Assembly (NCBI GenBank): GCA_938015805.1
Contig: CALLXF010000010.1
Span: 1-64,000 of the forward strand
Length of the DNA stretch: 64,000 nt
Reading direction: 5' to 3'
From: an uncultured Saprospiraceae bacterium
Lineage (GTDB): Bacteria > Bacteroidota > Bacteroidia > Chitinophagales > Saprospiraceae
In this document: piece after piece, positions 50,016 to 64,000 of the stretch
How positions within the stretch are numbered: the first letter of the stretch is position 1
How the letters are laid out: every line of letters begins with the position of its first letter
Position numbers and translations under genes: made by a program
Notes under the pieces: model-generated
What the model saw: the letters and a program-made list of their open reading frames with translations, nothing else
Told to the model about the DNA's origin: nothing
Database searches by the model: none

Positions 50016-50804
50016 CTAACTAGCCTTTTTCTTTGCAGCTTCTATACTTGCTTTTAAGGCATCCATAATATCGACGACGTGCTTTTCTTCTGTTTCACCT
50101 TCGTTTATCGTAACTACCTCTTTTCCTTCAACCTTTTGGTTTACAAGATCTAACAATGCATCTCTAAATCTATCCTCAAAATCTACCTGATCAAATGATG
50201 TACTGAGTGAATCCACTAATGACTCCGCCAATTGCAATTGCTTTTCATCTACTTCCTCCTCTACGATATCCGGCACCTCTTTTATATCTCTCAATTCGTA
50301 TGGGTAACGTAATTTATACATTACGATCGCTCCTTTATTGGCGGTAAGCAAAACAACATCTTCTCGATCTCTTAATATTATACGCCCTACACCTGCTTTT
50401 TTAGATTTTTCTAAAACCTTGTAAAACAAATTAAATGTCTTAGTCGCTACCTCACCATTAGGACCTACATAATACACTGCCTCATAACGAGATGGGTGCA
50501 CCTCATCCTGATCCACAAAAGCCTCAATGTCAATAGCTCGAGTACTCTTTAATTTTAAAGCATTAAATTCTGACTGCTCAAAAACCACATATTGATCTGG
50601 CTCATACTCATATCCTTTTACAATATCTTTAGACATCACCTCCTCATCACAGCTCCGACATACTTTTTTATACTTGATCCTACTGTTATCCTTTTTATGA
50701 AGCTGATTAAACCTTATGGTATTTCCTGTCTCTACCGCATTAAAGATTTGTATCGGTATGGTTACTAACGAAAATCTAATATGCCCTTTCCAAATAGATC
50801 TCAT
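50016..50804 (-). CDS. ku: Bacterial Ku DNA end-binding protein
   Basis: 262 aa from the ATG at 50804. The frame extends 27 codons further to another ATG, but Ku proteins start at the conserved MRSIWKGHIRFSLVTIPI, so the internal ATG is right. The Ku beta-barrel core spans residues 1-about 200 (RFNQLHKKDNSRIKYKKVC, CRSC). The C-terminal tail is Lys/Ala-rich (ALKASIEAAKKKAS), the part that contacts LigD and DNA. Ku dimers encircle double-strand DNA ends in non-homologous end joining. Its usual partner ligD is not within the window. Confidence 0.93.
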   Translation of the reverse strand: MRSIWKGHIRFSLVTIPIQIFNAVETGNTIRFNQLHKKDNSRIKYKKVCRSCDEEVMSKDIVKGYEYEPDQYVVFEQSEFNALKLKSTRAIDIEAFVDQDEVHPSRYEAVYYVGPNGEVATKTFNLFYKVLEKSKKAGVGRIILRDREDVVLLTANKGAIVMYKLRYPYELRDIKEVPDIVEEEVDEKQLQLAESLVDSLSTSFDQVDFEDRFRDALLDLVNQKVEGKEVVTINEGETEEKHVVDIMDALKASIEAAKKKAS

Positions 50805-51139
50805 ATTTCTTGTTTTAAAGTCTAAAGATAAATTAAAGCTCTTGCTTAGATAGTATAAAACTTTGAGTGTATGATGGTAATACATATACTCGAGTGGACT
50901 CGAATGGATCTTAAATTAACAATTATAATATAGAGGTATTATAAAAACCAGAAACCATAAGGGCCTAGGAGGATAGACCTTAGGCACTGTATTTTACATA
51001 TTTATAAAATTGATAAATTACAATATGTCAGCTAGATTGCAATTTTTGGAATGATTTTTGAAAATAACATATTGTAGAATATTATAATATGTTCTGCTTT
51101 TAGTAAAAGACTTTATAGAAGTTATAAACAGTATCACAC
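50805..51139. other. 335-base region between divergent ku and OmpA-like genes
   Basis: No ORF. It contains an inverted repeat AACATATT (51066-51073) / AATATGTT (51086-51093), and a weaker one near 50960 with GCCTAGG and CCTTAGGC. The symmetry upstream of the OmpA-like gene could be a regulator site. No TAnnTTTG box on either strand. Confidence 0.4.
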
Positions 51140-51658
51140 ATGAAAGCACTTTATAGCGTATTGCTAGCCGTGTTATTTATTTGGGCATGGAGCCTTAGTA
51201 AAAAGCACATCTGTAACCCTTCAGAATCAAGTTCTGACCCAGCGGAGGTAGTAGCTCCTATTTCCTCGGTAGATAAGGAATGTTATAGTTTAAATCTTAG
51301 GGACAAAAAATCATTTAATGTCAGTTCTGCTTCCAACTTTACCTTTAAATTATCAGAAAGTACTTTTATAGACCCTTCCGATGATTTACTGATAGCAACT
51401 TCTGAACTCATTTCTTATCTGGAAGAAAACCCAAAGCGGGCCATCCAGATAAAGGGTTTGTACTTAGCTACAGAAGAAAATAATACGGAAGAAAAATCTT
51501 TAGGATTGGCCAGAGCCAAAAATATAGAAAGCTTCTTTTTAGACCAAGGCGTTGTGGATGAACAAGTTCAAATCATCGGTAAAAAGGTGGATGACAGCTG
51601 TGTAGAAAATGATATTCTACTCAGGGGGTGTGCCATTGCGTTTGGCGGAAAAAAATAA
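51140..51658 (+). CDS. Membrane-anchored OmpA-like domain protein
   Basis: 172 aa. One N-terminal membrane helix or uncleaved signal (ALYSVLLAVLFIWAWSL). The rest resembles a degenerate OmpA C-terminal (peptidoglycan-associating) domain: FKLSESTFIDPSDDLLIATSELISYLEENP, the IQIKGLYLA strand, then LGLARAKNIESFFLDQGV, which parallels the LSxxRAxxVxxYL helix. The Asp/Arg pair that binds diaminopimelate is only partly recognisable. It lies 29 bases before the stalk/HhH gene. Confidence 0.62.
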   Translation: MKALYSVLLAVLFIWAWSLSKKHICNPSESSSDPAEVVAPISSVDKECYSLNLRDKKSFNVSSASNFTFKLSESTFIDPSDDLLIATSELISYLEENPKRAIQIKGLYLATEENNTEEKSLGLARAKNIESFFLDQGVVDEQVQIIGKKVDDSCVENDILLRGCAIAFGGKK

Positions 51659-51687
51659 TCTATTCATTTAAAGAAAAACAAATAGCT

Positions 51688-52677
51688 ATGTGTTATTGGC
51701 CATTATATTTTATGTTAGGAACTGCTCTTTTAGGGTGGTTAATAGGAAGATCTAGAAAATTAGATACCTCTACATACGATCTCCAACTTTCGTCGAAAGA
51801 CAAACAAATTACAACACTATCCTCCGATTATAAAACATCAAAAGACAGATACTCGGACTTAGAGGCAAATTATAAAAAGCTAAATTCAAAGTATACTGAA
51901 GCCTTGAACGAAATTTCTGCTAAACCAGAAATGCCTGATGCCATTGTAAATACAGAGATCAGAGAAATACCGGTAGAAGTTATAAAAGAGGTAGAAAAAA
52001 TAGTAGAAATAGAAGTTACCAAAGAAGTACCAGTAGAAACGATTAAAGAAATTATCAAAGAGGTAGAGGTAGTAAGGGAAGTTATTAAAGAAGTACCTGT
52101 AGAGACGATAAAAGAAGTGATAAAAGAAATCGAAGTCATCAAAGAAGTACCTGTAGAGACGATCGTAGAAAAAGAAATTATCAAGGAAGTAGAAGTGATC
52201 AAAGAAGTGGAAGTGATTAAAGAAGTAGAAGTGATTAAAGAGATAGAAGTGGTTAGAGAGGTACCTATCGAAATCTATAAAGAAGTAGAGGTCGTTAAGG
52301 GGATAGATATGGAGACACTACAAAAAATGGTAGCTGGTCTAGGAACTGTAGAATTATCTAAGTCCATTACCAGTGAGACAAGAAATATTAAAGAGGGAGA
52401 AATCGTAGAAAGAAGAGTCGTCGTAGAACCTCAAAAATTACGTAAGATAGAAGGTATCGGACCAAAGATTGAAAGTTTACTGCACGATGCAGGTATTAAA
52501 TCTTTTGGGCAATTAGCAGAAGCAAATCCAGATAAAATCAAAGAGATCTTATTAGCCGCCGGTAACAGATATAAGATGCATGACCCGACTAGCTGGCCAC
52601 AGCAAGCGGCTCTAGCAGCTGAAGAAAAGTGGGATGAACTAAAGGTGCTACAAGACTCTTTAAACGGAGGAAAGTAA
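51688..52677 (+). CDS. Membrane-anchored stalk protein with helix-hairpin-helix C-terminus
   Basis: 329 aa from the ATG at 51688; a frame extension to 51628 lies inside the previous gene and is not needed. A membrane helix (MCYWPLYFMLGTALLGWLIG) is followed by a coiled coil (about residues 25-75). Then comes about 130 residues of Glu/Lys/Val/Ile repeats (KEVPVETIKE three times, EVEVIK in tandem), then a helix-hairpin-helix domain (LRKIEGIGPKIESLLHDAGI, FGQLAEANPDKIKEILLAAG). That C-terminal domain is seen in several Bacteroidota proteins and may bind DNA or protein. With the OmpA-like neighbour it could span part of the envelope. Function unknown. Confidence 0.68.
   Translation: MCYWPLYFMLGTALLGWLIGRSRKLDTSTYDLQLSSKDKQITTLSSDYKTSKDRYSDLEANYKKLNSKYTEALNEISAKPEMPDAIVNTEIREIPVEVIKEVEKIVEIEVTKEVPVETIKEIIKEVEVVREVIKEVPVETIKEVIKEIEVIKEVPVETIVEKEIIKEVEVIKEVEVIKEVEVIKEIEVVREVPIEIYKEVEVVKGIDMETLQKMVAGLGTVELSKSITSETRNIKEGEIVERRVVVEPQKLRKIEGIGPKIESLLHDAGIKSFGQLAEANPDKIKEILLAAGNRYKMHDPTSWPQQAALAAEEKWDELKVLQDSLNGGK
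52186..52257 (+). repeat. Tandem 18-base coding repeat, 4 copies
   Basis: The unit GAAGTAGAAGTGATTAAA (encoding EVEVIK) occurs four times in a row with a few changes. It lies within the stalk region of the HhH protein and is a likely site of copy-number variation. Confidence 0.8.
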
Positions 52678-57484: not shown

Positions 57485-59527
57485 CTAATTTCCCGGAGAA
57501 ACTCCTGGGCCTACCGTAGTGTCTCTAAACCAAACTTCTGTGTAGCAACCATTTTCATACTGTTTCTGAATATCACCATCATAAGTTTCCGCTCCAGCAC
57601 ACCAGACCATATTTTTCTTAGGATCTTTTCCATTGGTTTGATTATAGGCTCCTTGTTTAAAATAAATGGTTTCGTTGCTATATGCGGATGCTCTTTCTGT
57701 TCCATCTTGTCCTATAGGAACAAATAACTTATTGACTTGGTCAGGTCGATCAGATGTCTTTACATATTCGGATGTTATAAGATTTTTAGTAAATGTTATA
57801 GTCTCATGTCGATCACTTTTAAATGTCAAGTACATAATACCGTTATAAACATTCACAGTGTATGAAAATTCTTCTCCTAGTTCAATTCCATCTTTTGGTT
57901 CCTCAGGAAAATCATTTTTACTTGTTCCTATTACAGACATATCATGACCCCAGACTGGAAGAGAATAATCCCATCTGCCGGAGTTATCATCACCTTCCGT
58001 ATTTATCTCATAATTCCAAAAGACAGATCCTTTTTCATGACCTGGAAATTTTTTGTAAAATATTTTTAGTGGTTCGTTTTCATGTCCAGCACCACTATGT
58101 ATTTGTCCGACTACAGTCGAATAAGATGCAGCCACTCTAGCATCTCCAGAAACGGATACATGCATCACTCTACAAGTACCCGTTAACTTCCCTCCTTCCT
58201 CTGGGGTCCATTCTCTTTTTTCATGTAATTCTGTTCTTGTATTACTCGAGTTTTTAGAAGTAACACCAGAGTTAGGTGTTTTGTAAACGACCCATCTTCT
58301 AGTACCGTCTATAGCAGTATAGAAGAAATTTTTATGTTCAAAGTCTATTAAGTCATCAACACTCGTTCCATCACCCATCAACATTTTAAATTTATCCATA
58401 CAATCGATTACCTCACTCGGATATACGGTTTTACTACTAAGCCCATCATTTGCTGCAAAATACCCAGCATTAGATATCGCATCATCACTGATCATCATAC
58501 TTGCTGATTTAAACCAAACTTCCGTGTAGTTTCCATCCGCATATTGTTTTTCTAAATCACCATTATGCGTTTCTGCTCCCGAGCACCAGACCTTATTAAG
58601 TTTAGGATCTTTTCCATTAGTTTGGTTATAAGATCCTAGTTTGAAAAATAGTCCTTCATTGGCGTAAGCCTCTTTACGCTCTACCCCATCTTGTCCAATA
58701 GGCACAAATAAATTTTTTACTTGCTCTGGCATATCTGAAGGCTTAGCGTATTCCGAATCGATCAGATTTTTAGTAAACGTTTTAGTCTCATGTCCCTCAC
58801 TCGTAAATGTAAGATGCATCACGCCATCTTTTATTTCTATCTCATAACTAAATTCTTCTCCTAAAGCAATTCCATCTTTTGGTTCTGGTGGGTAAGAATT
58901 TTTATCCGTTCCTACTACAGAAAAATCGTAACCCCAAATAGGATAAGAATAATCCCACCGTCCAGAATTATCATCCCCAGCCGTATTGATTTCATAGTTC
59001 CAAAAAACTGAGCCTTTAGTATGACCAGGGAATTTTTTATAGAATAATTTAAATGGTTCGTTTTCGTGTCCATCAGCACTATGAATTTGTCCTACAACGA
59101 CTGAGAATGTAGAGGCTACACGAGCATCACCTGTTGTAGCTACATTCATTACTTTAAGTGTAGCATTTAATTTTGCCTCAGTTTTAGGAGCCCATTTTTT
59201 TAATTGAGCTAGCTCTGTTCTCGTATTATTAGAGGTTCCGTGGGTATTTCCTGCATTAGGCGTTTTAAAAACAACCCAATCTTTTTTACCATCATTGGCG
59301 GCATAAAAAAAGTCTTTTTGCTCAAAGTCTATTGCGGGACCAGCATTGGTTCCATTTCCCAAGATCAAATTCCAATGCTGGAAAAAAGGGATAATATCAC
59401 TTGCATAAATCGTATCCATGGCAATGGTACTTTTAGATTCTTTAGCAGAATTTGCACAGCCATTTAGTATTAAAAAAGTACTAATAATTAATAATGTAGA
59501 TAATGATGTTGTTAGATATTTTTTCAT
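57485..59527 (-). CDS. Tandem PL7-family polysaccharide lyase (alginate lyase 2-like), lipoprotein
   Basis: 680 aa. Lipoprotein signal with Cys about 24 (LILNGC). Two PL7 domains in tandem (about residues 40-345 and 370-670). Each has the three catalytic signatures: NTRTEL, VGQIHS and GxYNQTNGKDP (FFKLGSYNQ; YFKQGAYNQ). The copies are alike in most motifs, so the gene arose by internal duplication. PL7 enzymes cleave alginate or related uronans by beta-elimination at the cell surface. It is last in the uronate operon, 109 bases after uxuA. The exact uronan is inferred only. Confidence 0.87.
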   Translation of the reverse strand: MKKYLTTSLSTLLIISTFLILNGCANSAKESKSTIAMDTIYASDIIPFFQHWNLILGNGTNAGPAIDFEQKDFFYAANDGKKDWVVFKTPNAGNTHGTSNNTRTELAQLKKWAPKTEAKLNATLKVMNVATTGDARVASTFSVVVGQIHSADGHENEPFKLFYKKFPGHTKGSVFWNYEINTAGDDNSGRWDYSYPIWGYDFSVVGTDKNSYPPEPKDGIALGEEFSYEIEIKDGVMHLTFTSEGHETKTFTKNLIDSEYAKPSDMPEQVKNLFVPIGQDGVERKEAYANEGLFFKLGSYNQTNGKDPKLNKVWCSGAETHNGDLEKQYADGNYTEVWFKSASMMISDDAISNAGYFAANDGLSSKTVYPSEVIDCMDKFKMLMGDGTSVDDLIDFEHKNFFYTAIDGTRRWVVYKTPNSGVTSKNSSNTRTELHEKREWTPEEGGKLTGTCRVMHVSVSGDARVAASYSTVVGQIHSGAGHENEPLKIFYKKFPGHEKGSVFWNYEINTEGDDNSGRWDYSLPVWGHDMSVIGTSKNDFPEEPKDGIELGEEFSYTVNVYNGIMYLTFKSDRHETITFTKNLITSEYVKTSDRPDQVNKLFVPIGQDGTERASAYSNETIYFKQGAYNQTNGKDPKKNMVWCAGAETYDGDIQKQYENGCYTEVWFRDTTVGPGVSPGN

Positions 59528-59636: not shown

Positions 59637-60851
59637 TTATACTCTTAAAGATTCTCTGATTCCTACTTCTAAACCTCTTAATTCTGCTAGACCTCTCAAT
59701 CTTCCAATAGCGGAATAGCCCGGATTTGTTCTTTGGTTAAGATCATTTAACATTTGATGACCATGATCGGGTCTAAAGGGTAATCTCATATCTATGCGAT
59801 TAGACTCTAGTCGACTTGCTTGCTCAGAAATTAAACTTTTCATAACACCATACATATCGACATCTCCTTCCAGGTGATTAGCTTCATGAAAATTTCCGGC
59901 GTCATCTCTTTTAGTAGACCGTAAATGAACAAAATGTATTCTAGACCCTAGTCGTTCTACGATACCCACAAGATCGTTATCTGGAAGGACTCCTAAAGAA
60001 CCTGTACAAAATGTAAGGCCGTTATGAATACTATCTACTGCATCGTAAATTTCTACTATATCTTTTTCTGTACATACGATACGAGGTAATCCCAAAATTG
60101 GAAATGGAGGATCATCCGGATGAATACACATAAATACACCTGCTTTTTCTGCTGTCGGAATAATTTCTTGTAAAAATGAAAAGAGGTGAGATTTTAACTG
60201 ATCTTTATTTATATCATTGTAAGAATCCAGTACTTGCTGAAACTTCTTTAGTGTATATCCTTCCTCTGCTCCTGGTAACCCTGCAATAATATTATTTACA
60301 AGTTTCTCTTTATCTTTTAAGGATAAACTCAGGAAATAAGTATTTGCGATTTTTCTTTGTCTATCAGAGTAACTTTCTATCGCTCCAGGTCTTTTTAAAA
60401 TAAATAACTCAAAAGCTGCAAAAGCAACAGCATCAAATCTCAATGCACTACTACCATCCCTATAAGAATAATCCAGATCTGTTCTTGTCCAGTCTAGGAC
60501 TGGCATGAAATTATAACATATGATATCGATATCACAGTTACCTAAGTTAGTTATCGTTTTTTTATAATTATCAATATATTCCTGGCAACGTCCATTTCCT
60601 TTTTTAATATCCTCGTGTACAGGTACGCTCTCTACCACAGACCATCGGAGCCCTGCTTCTTCTATTTCCTTTTTACGTTTTAATATTTCATCTACGGGCC
60701 ATACTTCCCCGTTAGGAATATGATGTAGAGCGGAAACTATTCCTGTTGCCCCTGTCATTTTTATATGAGAAAGGGTAACCGTATCGCTCGGACCAAACCA
60801 TCTCCATGTTTGTTCCAGTCTAAGGGACGCTTGGTTATTTAGTAAGTCCAT
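59637..60851 (-). CDS. uxuA: Mannonate dehydratase
   Basis: 404 aa, the UxuA-type TIM barrel. Landmarks: [12 protein letters not shown] at the start, [52 protein letters not shown] and [11 protein letters not shown], including the Cys, His and Asp that bind Fe/Mn. It dehydrates D-mannonate to 2-keto-3-deoxygluconate in uronate catabolism. Two bases after the Nramp-fold gene, so in the same operon. It joins with the fructuronate reductase upstream. Confidence 0.95.
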
Positions 60852-60853
60852 AT

Positions 60854-62095
60854 TTAAATTATTTGTTGAAGGACTCCTTTGACTCCTATAAATGATGTAA
60901 AAATTGCAAACGCAAGTATTACAAATAAAATAATATTAGTAACAATAGAAAAACGATATTTTTCCATTAAATCTTTACGGTTACCGAGATACATAATACA
61001 CCCAACGGTTAATGGAAGAATGATGGAATTTAATGCTTGTGATATGATCATTACAAATACAGGCCGAGCGTTAAAAATGGGTACTACCAGTCCTAGTAAT
61101 GAAATGAAAAAAACCATGAGTCTATATTTAGGAAGTTTCATTTCTCTAGGCGACTGGTTATAATCGCACAGTAACCAAGGAAGCATTAATACATTTGGGA
61201 ACTGAGAAGAAACACCTGCAGCAATAATTCCAAATGCAAATATGGCAACTGCCATTTTACCTGCAAGTGGTTCGAGTATTTCTATCATCTGCGAAGCCTT
61301 ATTTAAACCTAGATTCTCAGGAAAAAGAGTTCCTGCGGCGGCAGCCATAATAGACATACTAATAACAAACATCAAAACCACAGAAACAATTGCATCCTTT
61401 CTTTGTGTAATAGTATCCTCTATTCCCCATCCTGCTTCTTTGACTAAAGTAGTTCTTATTATAAATAATCCGGAAAACACAGTGGTTCCTATAAGAGAGG
61501 CTATTACTAAAAAGGGTCCTTTATCCATATCATTAGTGACGGCTGGAATATTGGGTAATAACCCGCTTAATATCTCTTTAGGAGGAGGCATAAGGATAAA
61601 AAAGTTAACAAGAAAACATAAAGACATTATCGCAACAATAACGGCAAGTGATCTTTCAAAAAACTGAGTTTCCCCATTCCAAAAAATAAAATAAACAACT
61701 ATTATAAAAAAGGCTGCAAAATAAACAGCCGGGATTCCATCACTTATAAATGATTTAGACCAAACATGAGATATATCTGCAACTATACCCATGACGCCCA
61801 TTACACTACCCATAACTCCTGCCGTAAGCGCAATAATAAAGAATATCCCTATCCCTGGATGTATATGTTTTTTAAAAGCATAAAGAGCCGTCTCTCCTGT
61901 TACCATAGTATAACGGCTATATAGATTTATCATAAAATAAGTCGCGAGGCAAGAGGCGACTATAGTCCATAAAAGAGACATACCATAGGTTGCCCCTGCT
62001 TTAGCCATAGAAGTTACACTACCAGTTCCTATATTAAAACCCAGTAAAAAGATACCAGGAAGAAATAGAGCAATCGTTTTTTTTATTTGATCCAT
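60854..62095 (-). CDS. Nramp-fold transporter lacking the metal-binding motifs
   Basis: 413 aa, about eleven membrane helices, Nramp/LeuT-like. The helix-1 motif DPGN that binds metal in true Nramps is replaced: [18 protein letters not shown] aligns with it, giving GTGS. The helix-6 M-P-H motif is replaced by [12 protein letters not shown], with Phe-Pro-Asn. So it should not carry Mn/Fe in the usual way. It sits between fructuronate reductase and uxuA, two bases before the latter, so a uronate or related sugar acid is the likely substrate. That specificity is inference from loss of ligands and context. Confidence 0.8.
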
Positions 62096-62123: not shown

Positions 62124-62936
62124 TCACACTCCACTAAACGCACTAAAACCACCGTCTATCGGAATCACTATTCCGGTTACAAATTTAGAAGCATCAGAAC
62201 ACAAATAATGAATTGCTCCATTGAGTTCATCTGCATTTCCAAATCTATTCATAGGTGTATTATTAATAATTGTTTTCCCTCTGTCTGTATAGCTACCATC
62301 CGCGTTAGTTAATAAAGCTCGATTTTGATTTCCTATAAAAAACCCTGGAGCAATGGCGTTTACACGCATCCCATCTCCATACTTTTGAGCTAACTCTACA
62401 GACATCCATTTAGTAAAATTATCTATAGCAGCCTTAGAAGCAGAATATCCCATCACTCTTGTAATGGCTCTGTCTGCGGCCATGGAAGAAACATTTATAA
62501 TAACTCCTTTTTTATGCATAGACATTTGCTTTCCAAAAACTAATGAAGGAATTATGCTTCCAAATAAATTTAAATCTACTACTTGTTTAAATTGCTCTAC
62601 GTCAACTCCAAATACAGATTCATCTGGTCCTACAGTAGCACCTGGTTTATTTCCTCCTGCTGCATTAATCAAAACGTCTATCCTACCATGCTTGTCGATG
62701 ATTTTTTTAGATACTTCTTTTAAACTTTTATCTTCTACTACATTACAAACGTAGCCGTCTATATTTTTACTAATTACTCTTAGGCTTTCTAATTTTTCTA
62801 AAAGTGGTTTCTCTTTATAATGCAATAAAATAACTGTGGCTTTCTGCTCTAACAGATACTTTGCTATTGCACCTCCAAGAATACCGCAACCACCGGTCAC
62901 AAGGATTACCTTATTTTCAAGATTAAATAAATTCAT
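62124..62936 (-). CDS. SDR-family D-mannonate oxidoreductase (fructuronate reductase)
   Basis: 270 aa short-chain dehydrogenase. NAD(P) motif VTGGCGILGGAIA, NAAGGNKPG, catalytic Ser in VSSMAA and Tyr-Lys in MGYSASKAA. The segments LAQKYGDGMRVNAIAPGFF, NQNRALLTNADGSYT and the end PIDGGFSAFSGV are typical of the SDR enzymes that accompany UxuA in Bacteroidota. It reduces D-fructuronate to D-mannonate. Ten bases after manA and 28 before the transporter. Confidence 0.87.
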   Translation of the reverse strand: MNLFNLENKVILVTGGCGILGGAIAKYLLEQKATVILLHYKEKPLLEKLESLRVISKNIDGYVCNVVEDKSLKEVSKKIIDKHGRIDVLINAAGGNKPGATVGPDESVFGVDVEQFKQVVDLNLFGSIIPSLVFGKQMSMHKKGVIINVSSMAADRAITRVMGYSASKAAIDNFTKWMSVELAQKYGDGMRVNAIAPGFFIGNQNRALLTNADGSYTDRGKTIINNTPMNRFGNADELNGAIHYLCSDASKFVTGIVIPIDGGFSAFSGV

Positions 62937-62946
62937 GTTCTACTTT

Positions 62947-64000
62947 TTAAGATGGTGGATAACAGAGTAATATTTTAGAATTGTTTGTAGCAATAAAAGT
63001 GATTTCTGAGATAGCAGCGGAAATAAAAATTTTGTCACCTTGTTGATAACTATATTCTTTATCATTACAAATCATAATTCCATTTCCAGAATAAACAACG
63101 ACAACATAGAAACTTGAATTACCTTTTATTGTATACTTTCCTTTTAAAAGCAATTCCCTCAACCCAAAGCACTCGGTGTGCTTTTTATTAAATAAGGTTC
63201 TTAAAGTATGTTGGCCCGAGTTATCAATAACTTTCGGCGTTATTTTCCAATTTTGTAAAGCTTCCTCTAAGGTAAAAGTTTCATAGTGAAAACATTCTAA
63301 CATCTTTTCCTCACCTACTCCTTGATGAATGAGTGCAGGTCCCATTTTTAATCCACTGGGTGTAGTTTTTTCTACTCGCATGGTGTAATCAGTCGGTTCT
63401 TGCACCTCCATTAAGAAACAACCCGAACCTATTGCATGGGGAACTCCTCCATAAATCATAAAAGCATCTCCTGCCTTGACTTCGATTTTATGAAGGCAGT
63501 CCAGCATACCTTGGATATTTTGATTTTTAAAATGGGTTTTCCATAACTCTCGAGTAACATGTTTTTTAAAACCCATATAAACTACACTTTTCTCCCCTTC
63601 TACTTCTCTTGTATTTAAAACATACCAAGACTCTGTTTTACCAAATTCTGAATTAAATACTTTTCTAGCATATTCCTTATCTGGATGAACTTGGACTGTT
63701 AATCTTTCGACGGAATCTAACATTTTAATGAGTACACCAGTTGTTCCAAATTTTTGTGCTACGGTCTTCCCTAAGAACAATTCGAGATTGGACTCAATTA
63801 ATTCCTTCAAGGTAAAATCACCATCCTCAGTTTGGATTATGGATAAACCTTCATTTACAGGTCTATCTATTCCACGAGCTGTAATTGTAGACATGATCCA
63901 TTCCTCAGGTAAATTAGAATCTATCTCCGGATAATTTTTATTCCATTGATCTATAAGTGCACCTCCTTGATAAGTTCTCCAAACTCTGTTAGATAACTGC
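62947..64000 (-). CDS. manA: Class I mannose-6-phosphate isomerase, 5' end outside the window
   Basis: The frame stays open from the first in-window ATG (63894) to the window edge and encodes conserved family sequence upstream (RVWRTYQGGALIDQW, then PEEWIMSTITARG), so the real start lies beyond 64000. Zn ligands: TVQVHPD (Gln, His), TESWYVL (Glu) and GGVPHAIG (His). The C-terminal part has KILLCYPPS. It interconverts mannose-6-phosphate and fructose-6-phosphate, or a related sugar in this operon. It is at least 351 codons long here and is upstream of the fructuronate reductase gene. Confidence 0.85.
   Translation of the reverse strand, partial: QLSNRVWRTYQGGALIDQWNKNYPEIDSNLPEEWIMSTITARGIDRPVNEGLSIIQTEDGDFTLKELIESNLELFLGKTVAQKFGTTGVLIKMLDSVERLTVQVHPDKEYARKVFNSEFGKTESWYVLNTREVEGEKSVVYMGFKKHVTRELWKTHFKNQNIQGMLDCLHKIEVKAGDAFMIYGGVPHAIGSGCFLMEVQEPTDYTMRVEKTTPSGLKMGPALIHQGVGEEKMLECFHYETFTLEEALQNWKITPKVIDNSGQHTLRTLFNKKHTECFGLRELLLKGKYTIKGNSSFYVVVVYSGNGIMICNDKEYSYQQGDKIFISAAISEITFIATNNSKILLCYPPS

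Follow-up and report, generated by a model that had tools for sequence, protein, structure and literature searches.

A carbohydrate-linked branch of the Nramp fold without the canonical metal site, and a predicted hexuronate carrier in an alginate operon of Saprospiraceae

Introduction

In a stretch of 64,000 nucleotides from an uncultured Saprospiraceae bacterium, the whole of which we call the window, a gene of the Nramp family sits in a 12-gene alginate/uronate operon. This raises the question of what its product would import there: a divalent metal ion, or one of the sugar acids on which the neighbouring enzymes act. Judged from sequence, a sugar acid rather than a metal is the most likely import, because the gene lies in an alginate operon, all the metal-gripping residues are missing from its product, and its branch of the family stands beside sugar-degrading genes. 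A sequence-only reading had arrived at a uronate permease by a partly different route, and several of its claims are revised below.

The gene and its operon

The open reading frame is real and encodes 413 amino acids. Its membership of the Nramp family is clear, as the match to PF01566 exceeds the cut-off of 29.8 bits more than sixfold and covers positions 1-356 of the 357 in the profile, but the canonical MntH model of NCBIfam (PRK00701) gives only 78 bits, far under its cut-off of 430. The broader NCBIfam model Nramp_1 is passed (73 against a cut-off of 50), and it is by this route, with the broad model passed and the MntH model failed, that genes of this kind acquire the label of metal transporter. 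The best single-sequence match in the PDB by sequence is EleNRMT (7qia, 72 bits). The gene and its neighbours in the window are as follows.

57485..59527, reverse strand: lyase with two Alginate_lyase2 (PL7-type) domains, at the operon end (PF08787, 3e-94, two stretches)
59637..60851, reverse strand: uxuA, mannonate dehydratase, downstream of the Nramp gene across a 2-base gap (TIGR00695, 559 bits, cut-off 199.6)
60854..62095, reverse strand: Nramp-fold carrier of the GTGS/Arg branch, proposed hexuronate permease (PF01566, 191.3 bits)
62124..62936, reverse strand: UxuB-type SDR, D-mannonate oxidoreductase / fructuronate reductase, upstream across a 28-base gap (NF006132, 348 bits, cut-off 281)
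62947..63999 and past the window end, reverse strand: ManA-like isomerase (class I phosphomannose isomerase fold; TIGR00218, 103.6 bits for the part inside the window only, below the cut-off of 116.2)

Both the two-base spacing to uxuA and the fructuronate reductase upstream had been recognized from the letters alone and are confirmed here. The description of the surroundings as a uronate operon is correct as far as it goes but incomplete, since the operon runs past the window on the same strand of the same contig (locus L003). The ManA-like gene, complete at L003:6948-8042 and the sole TIGR00218 match in the genome, is followed there by genes for a KDPG aldolase, a PfkB-family KDG kinase and a second SDR, and further on by those for a sugar-acid-type MFS carrier, a KdgF-like cupin, a PL17-type lyase and a PL6-type lyase. 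With these genes included, the operon is one for alginate utilisation, to which a mannonate branch is attached.

UxaC is encoded elsewhere in the genome, beside TRAP-transporter-like genes (L216; contig C72:20041-37423). That region looks like a second uronate locus, with UxaC, a TRAP-like transporter, KduI and a KduD-like SDR, all but UxaC being assigned by eye. Two other genes in the window may also be recorded: one at 51628-52677 on the forward strand encodes long E/V/K-rich repeats (VPVETIKEVIKE-like) followed by a C-terminal helix-hairpin-helix domain, and one at 50016-50885 on the reverse strand encodes a bacterial Ku protein (PF02735).

An intact fold without the metal site

Motifs were placed by an alignment of 172 PF01566 proteins, by a local-pair realignment and by a profile match to DraNramp and BfraNramp, and all three agree on the following positions.

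62018..62029, reverse strand: helix-1 GTGS (residues 23-26) replacing DPGN; G23, T24, G25 and S26 in 80/80 GTGS proteins (alignments)
61469..61477, reverse strand: FSG (residues 207-209), the true helix-6 counterpart of MPH (alignments; model break at 206-207)
61454..61456, reverse strand: Arg214 in helix 6b, at the canonical His (H237 of DraNramp; alignment to DraNramp)
61193..61201, reverse strand: FPN (residues 299-301) in helix 8 (helix 280-313 in the model)

The GTGS motif does stand where canonical transporters have DPGN, so that their Asp and Asn are replaced by G23 and S26. The FPN motif had been read as the helix-6 equivalent of MPH, and this is mistaken: residues 299-301 align to the canonical SSTITG stretch and lie in TM8, and the helix-6 placement is ruled out by the three alignments together with the AlphaFold2 model. 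At the true counterpart of MPH the Met is a Phe and H232 is a Gly. The canonical DLAE stretch of TM3 is represented by GSVMG, which has no acids, and position 214 is Arg in 80/80 GTGS proteins but His in 15/15 canonical ones. The claim that the metal ligands are absent is therefore not only upheld but strengthened by the correction. That they were lost is another matter, and is not borne out: according to Ray and colleagues (PMC12873925) the Nramp-related proteins without the metal motif are paraphyletic to, and below, the canonical transporters, so the ligands may never have existed in this lineage.

The AlphaFold2 model (pLDDT 90, pTM 0.89) has the LeuT fold with helices 1 and 6 broken, the breaks falling at residues 22-23 and 206-207. 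It superposes on DraNramp (6d91) over 389 residues with an rmsd of 2.5 A and a VIA Z of 45.2; over the DraNramp and BfraNramp structures the VIA Z is 39-45, and against the YcsG model 9a52 it is 40.3. The window protein thus shares with the canonical Nramp/SLC11 proteins (MntH; DraNramp, BfraNramp) its Pfam family, the LeuT fold and the TM1 and TM6 breaks, but lacks DPGN, MPH and the TM3 acids, has Arg at the H237 position, and is only 17-20% identical to the canonical members of our sample. It has an intact Nramp fold and is without the canonical metal site.

We define the GTGS/Arg branch by GTGS in helix 1, GTT in helix 6a, Arg in helix 6b, Pro300 in helix 8, and monophyly; G23, S26, T204, T205, R214 and P300 are each present in 80/80 members. 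Two further residues, Q298 and N301, occur in 30/30 proteins of the subgroup closest to the window protein and are rare elsewhere.

Could the protein nonetheless import metal, supplying Mn2+ or Fe2+ to UxuA and other metalloenzymes of the operon through a remodelled site of the kind that NRMT or YcsG/MntG may have? UxuA-type dehydratases need Mn2+ or Fe2+, which would fit a metal carrier, and both the family assignment to PF01566 and the label of metal transporter that the NCBI pipeline attaches to an Escherichia coli homologue point the same way. There are also precedents for atypical members that move metals, in that import of Mn2+ has been reported for the Nramp-related YcsG (PMC10448178) and EleNRMT, like the window protein a divergent prokaryotic member of PF01566, moves Mg2+ and Mn2+ with a changed site (PMC8806188). 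The NRMTs, however, carry the signature DxxG-TxxA/T and retain the helix-1 Asp (PMC8806188), which is absent from the GTGS proteins; the window protein has Gly23 in its place and T204-T-V-F207 in helix 6, and its gene context has no link to Mg2+. Since none of the three canonical side-chain ligands and none of the TM3 acids is present, and helix 6 has a positively charged Arg in 80/80 members, the site itself argues against metal import, and the gene context described next does so as well.

Gene context across the family

The 172 sampled PF01566 proteins were compared together with their gene neighbourhoods, and most come from genomes of the phylum to which the window belongs. Context played no part in assembling the GTGS set, which came from similarity to the window protein and from a scan of the family; neighbours within 5 kb were clustered unlabelled before any marker labels were given. 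In the tree the GTGS proteins fall into a single clade (support 1.0, on a branch of 0.89), separate from proteins with a GPGT motif; the additional sequence in that clade is L027, a truncated fragment with GTGS.

Carbohydrate genes lie within 5 kb at 56/75 GTGS loci as against 5/90 loci of other PF01566 proteins (Fisher 1e-21, a descriptive value, because labels followed clustering and the genomes are related), and strict uronate or alginate markers at 34/75 as against 0/90. The sequence-only reading had named, as the outcome that would tell against it, homologues found mostly outside sugar-acid operons; homologues with the same substitutions instead lie mostly inside carbohydrate or sugar-acid clusters, and the reading passes this check. 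MntR was found within 5 kb of 0/75 GTGS loci but of 6/15 canonical DPGN carriers, so that the carbohydrate setting of the window operon differs from the MntR-linked setting of canonical Nramps. The GTGS clade also occurs in clusters without UxuA, a further point against metal import, which, taking site and context together, we consider quite unlikely.

Two controls accompany the marker counts. When sequences are collapsed at 65% identity, a mostly carbohydrate context is seen in 16/21 GTGS clusters, 2/46 GPGT clusters and 1/12 canonical clusters, and MntR is found in none of the GTGS clusters. Tallies of Pfam families among neighbours within 3 kb, for which families were not hand-picked, give UxuA (11), SDR (8), PL17-type (4) and PL7 (3) for the window group, and SDR, AP_endonuc_2, GFO_IDH, alginate lyase and hexosaminidase for the more distant GTGS members. 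The canonical tally has an Fe-dependent repressor (6) and FeoA (5), and that of GPGT has CT_A_B, CT_C_D and LamB_YcsF, representing PxpABC, at 8 each.

The GPGT branch has a distinct association of its own. Genes for 5-oxoprolinases lie near 26/51 GPGT loci, whereas no 5-oxoprolinase gene, PxpABC included, was found within 5 kb of any of the 75 GTGS loci, which sets the latter apart from the PxpT/YcsG branch. The 26 comprise 20 loci with PxpABC and 6 others with the unrelated Hydantoinase_A/B oxoprolinase, the two never occurring together (e.g. L140:1880-5608, L196); the pairing of one type of carrier with two unrelated enzymes for a single substrate supports 5-oxoproline as the GPGT substrate, and bears on the dispute over YcsG/MntG. 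The only other PF01566 gene of the window's genome belongs here (G000 contig C6:16264-17295; L001, L196:5923-7107). It has the GPGT motif and adjoins pxpA, pxpB and pxpC, and is therefore probably a 5-oxoproline carrier; a role as a canonical Mn transporter was rejected on the same two grounds. A search of the genome found no third PF01566 match and no canonical DPGN Nramp.

An organic substrate for the fold had been thought unusual, but there is a precedent. PxpT of Corynebacterium glutamicum, a member of the NRAMP family (TC 2.A.55), is required for growth on 5-oxoproline (PMC13274462), and so resembles the window protein in being Nramp-related and encoded with catabolic enzymes, in its case those for the organic acid for which it is genetically required. 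The 5-oxoprolinase-adjacent branch, to which PxpT and YcsG may belong, has GPGT, a TM3 Glu or Gln, VPYN and no Arg214, and is 20-28% identical to the window protein.

Loci of the window subgroup

Co-occurrence with UxuA, the check that the sequence-only reading had put forward, is seen within 5 kb in 13/30 close relatives. In many Saprospiraceae uxuA is downstream and co-directional; in gammaproteobacterial MAGs it is divergent (L020, L021, L023). The close subgroup is rare in that class, being present in 2/274 genomes of a gammaproteobacterial search. A four-gene module of Nramp gene, uxuA, uxuB-type SDR gene and ManA-like gene recurs without adjoining alginate lyases (L004, L011, L013). By its context the gene belongs with the breakdown of uronates.

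The Nramp-fold protein is the sole multi-spanning membrane protein within 5 kb at 18/22 window-like loci with sugar genes, several of the 22 being cut by contig ends; the four exceptions have two MFS proteins, one sulfate permease and one MatE protein. Most of these clusters thus offer no other candidate for an inner-membrane carrier. In several loci of the window subgroup the Nramp gene also adjoins a gene for a protein family, about 260 amino acids long, that has no Pfam or NCBIfam match (L022:409-1194, with relatives in L015, L017 and L019).

Other close relatives adjoin genes for GH38, a sulfatase or an aldose epimerase (L024-L026) or an HpcH/HpaI aldolase (L028). These settings, along with the CoA-transferase near the E. 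coli member, indicate that substrates differ within the GTGS clade, and Arg214 alone cannot mean uronate. Such diversity might be taken further, to suggest a carrier of a neutral sugar such as mannose, or of organic solutes broadly, for which uronate clusters are merely one setting; GH38, aldose epimerase and ManA-like neighbours in L024-L026 are consistent with this, as are the GH20, GH2 and glucosamine-isomerase clusters around distant GTGS members. We think it improbable, since the window copy and most of its 70-84% relatives are tied to uronate enzymes, and genes for organic acids accompany the GPGT sister branch as well as the E. coli member.

Proposed substrate and mechanism

We predict that the product of the window gene is a secondary carrier of the inner membrane, with the LeuT (Nramp) fold, and that it takes up a hexuronate or hexonate monomer derived from alginate; to this reading we would give a probability of roughly two in three. 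Alginate would be cut outside the inner membrane by the PL6, PL17 and PL7 lyases, and most of the product would be the unsaturated uronate DEH, which the operon's MFS carrier, cupin and SDR would serve. The Nramp-fold protein would import a hexuronate by alternating access, feeding UxuB and UxuA and then KDG catabolism. The substrate may occupy a central site between broken helices 1 and 6, where Gly, Ser and Phe stand in for the canonical Asp, Asn and Met. Its carboxylate would presumably be bound by Arg214, which is invariant in helix 6b, together with main-chain amides at the GTGS and GTT breaks, and the helix-8 residues Q298 and N301 could tune specificity.

The substrate may be mannuronate, another hexuronate, mannonate or DEH. 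UxuB and UxuA act on fructuronate and mannonate (PMC6353982), so a saturated alginate uronate, most simply D-mannuronate, fits the direct neighbours best. Conversion of mannuronate to fructuronate would require an isomerase, and it is conceivable that the ManA-like protein provides it, but the suggestion is a weak one, since another genome has a 79% identical copy that is not part of any uronate cluster (L215). Mannuronate isomerase as a fixed role for the protein was set aside in view of that copy and of its being the genome's sole TIGR00218 match; our literature search did not find the phrase 'mannuronate isomerase'.

DEH is the main alternative. The sugar-acid-type MFS carrier already present in the window operon makes the Nramp gene not obviously needed there, which counts against our main reading. 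On the alternative reading the Nramp-fold protein is itself a permease for DEH, the unsaturated alginate monomer, and not for a saturated uronate, the MFS protein being redundant or having other cargo. In Neolewinella, where a copy is 77% identical to that of the window, and in Lewinella the gene follows those for GntR, SusC, SusD and an SDR 78-79% identical to the second SDR of the window operon, in loci without UxuA; PL17 is nearby in several loci, and L016-L018 have no other carrier within 5 kb. We nonetheless regard DEH as a rather unlikely cargo, since the commonest direct neighbours in the window subgroup are UxuA and the UxuB-type SDR, whose substrates are not DEH, and both carriers are kept where an MFS gene adjoins DEH genes (L003, L015).

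Relation to published work and wider implications

An Nramp gene in a comparable setting has been depicted before. In Alteromonas sp. 76-1 such a gene is drawn in or near alginate clusters with PL, KdgF, DehR and MFS genes (PMC6431674, Fig. S3); the authors label it a metal-ion transporter, and their main text is silent on it. Ray and colleagues describe Nramp-related proteins without the metal motif as entirely uncharacterised save NRMT and MntG/YcsG (PMC12873925). Our own literature search, which left most subscription journals out of reach, turned up no proposal that a protein of the Nramp fold carries a uronate or a sugar, and the carbohydrate-linked branch appears undescribed in the literature searched. 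The prediction, to which sequence and gene context lend good support, is of a new substrate class within one branch of a carrier family already known.

If the prediction is true, the divalent-metal annotation is wrong for the whole clade, a missing inner-membrane carrier has been found for alginate and uronate pathways, and the substrates of the Nramp fold extend beyond ions to organic acids; the result would bear, too, on the origin of the metal site in MntH, NRAMP1 and DMT1. A broader proposal, tentative and in our estimation somewhat short of an even chance, is that the GTGS/Arg proteins are sugar-acid or carbohydrate carriers and the second branch 5-oxoproline carriers, that the fold first carried organic solutes and metal later, and that many 'metal transporters', including those in about one in ten complete E. 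coli genomes, carry organic acids. An organic-solute origin would follow if, in line with what published trees suggest, the Nramp-related proteins came first.

Other PF01566 groups, with GVSH, GPGS, GSGE or GAGD in helix 1, are likewise without the metal site and have no clear context (L102-L111, L114-L116, L138, L163-L169). In 546 of 5426 complete E. coli genomes, a GTGS/Arg homologue with 49% identity is encoded between dnaB and qorA. This protein, annotated as a divalent metal transporter, is probably an organic-acid carrier; its neighbours (L091:9007-10236, SK1144; L088) encode a LacI regulator, a CoA-transferase, an enoyl-CoA hydratase and an FAD oxidoreductase.
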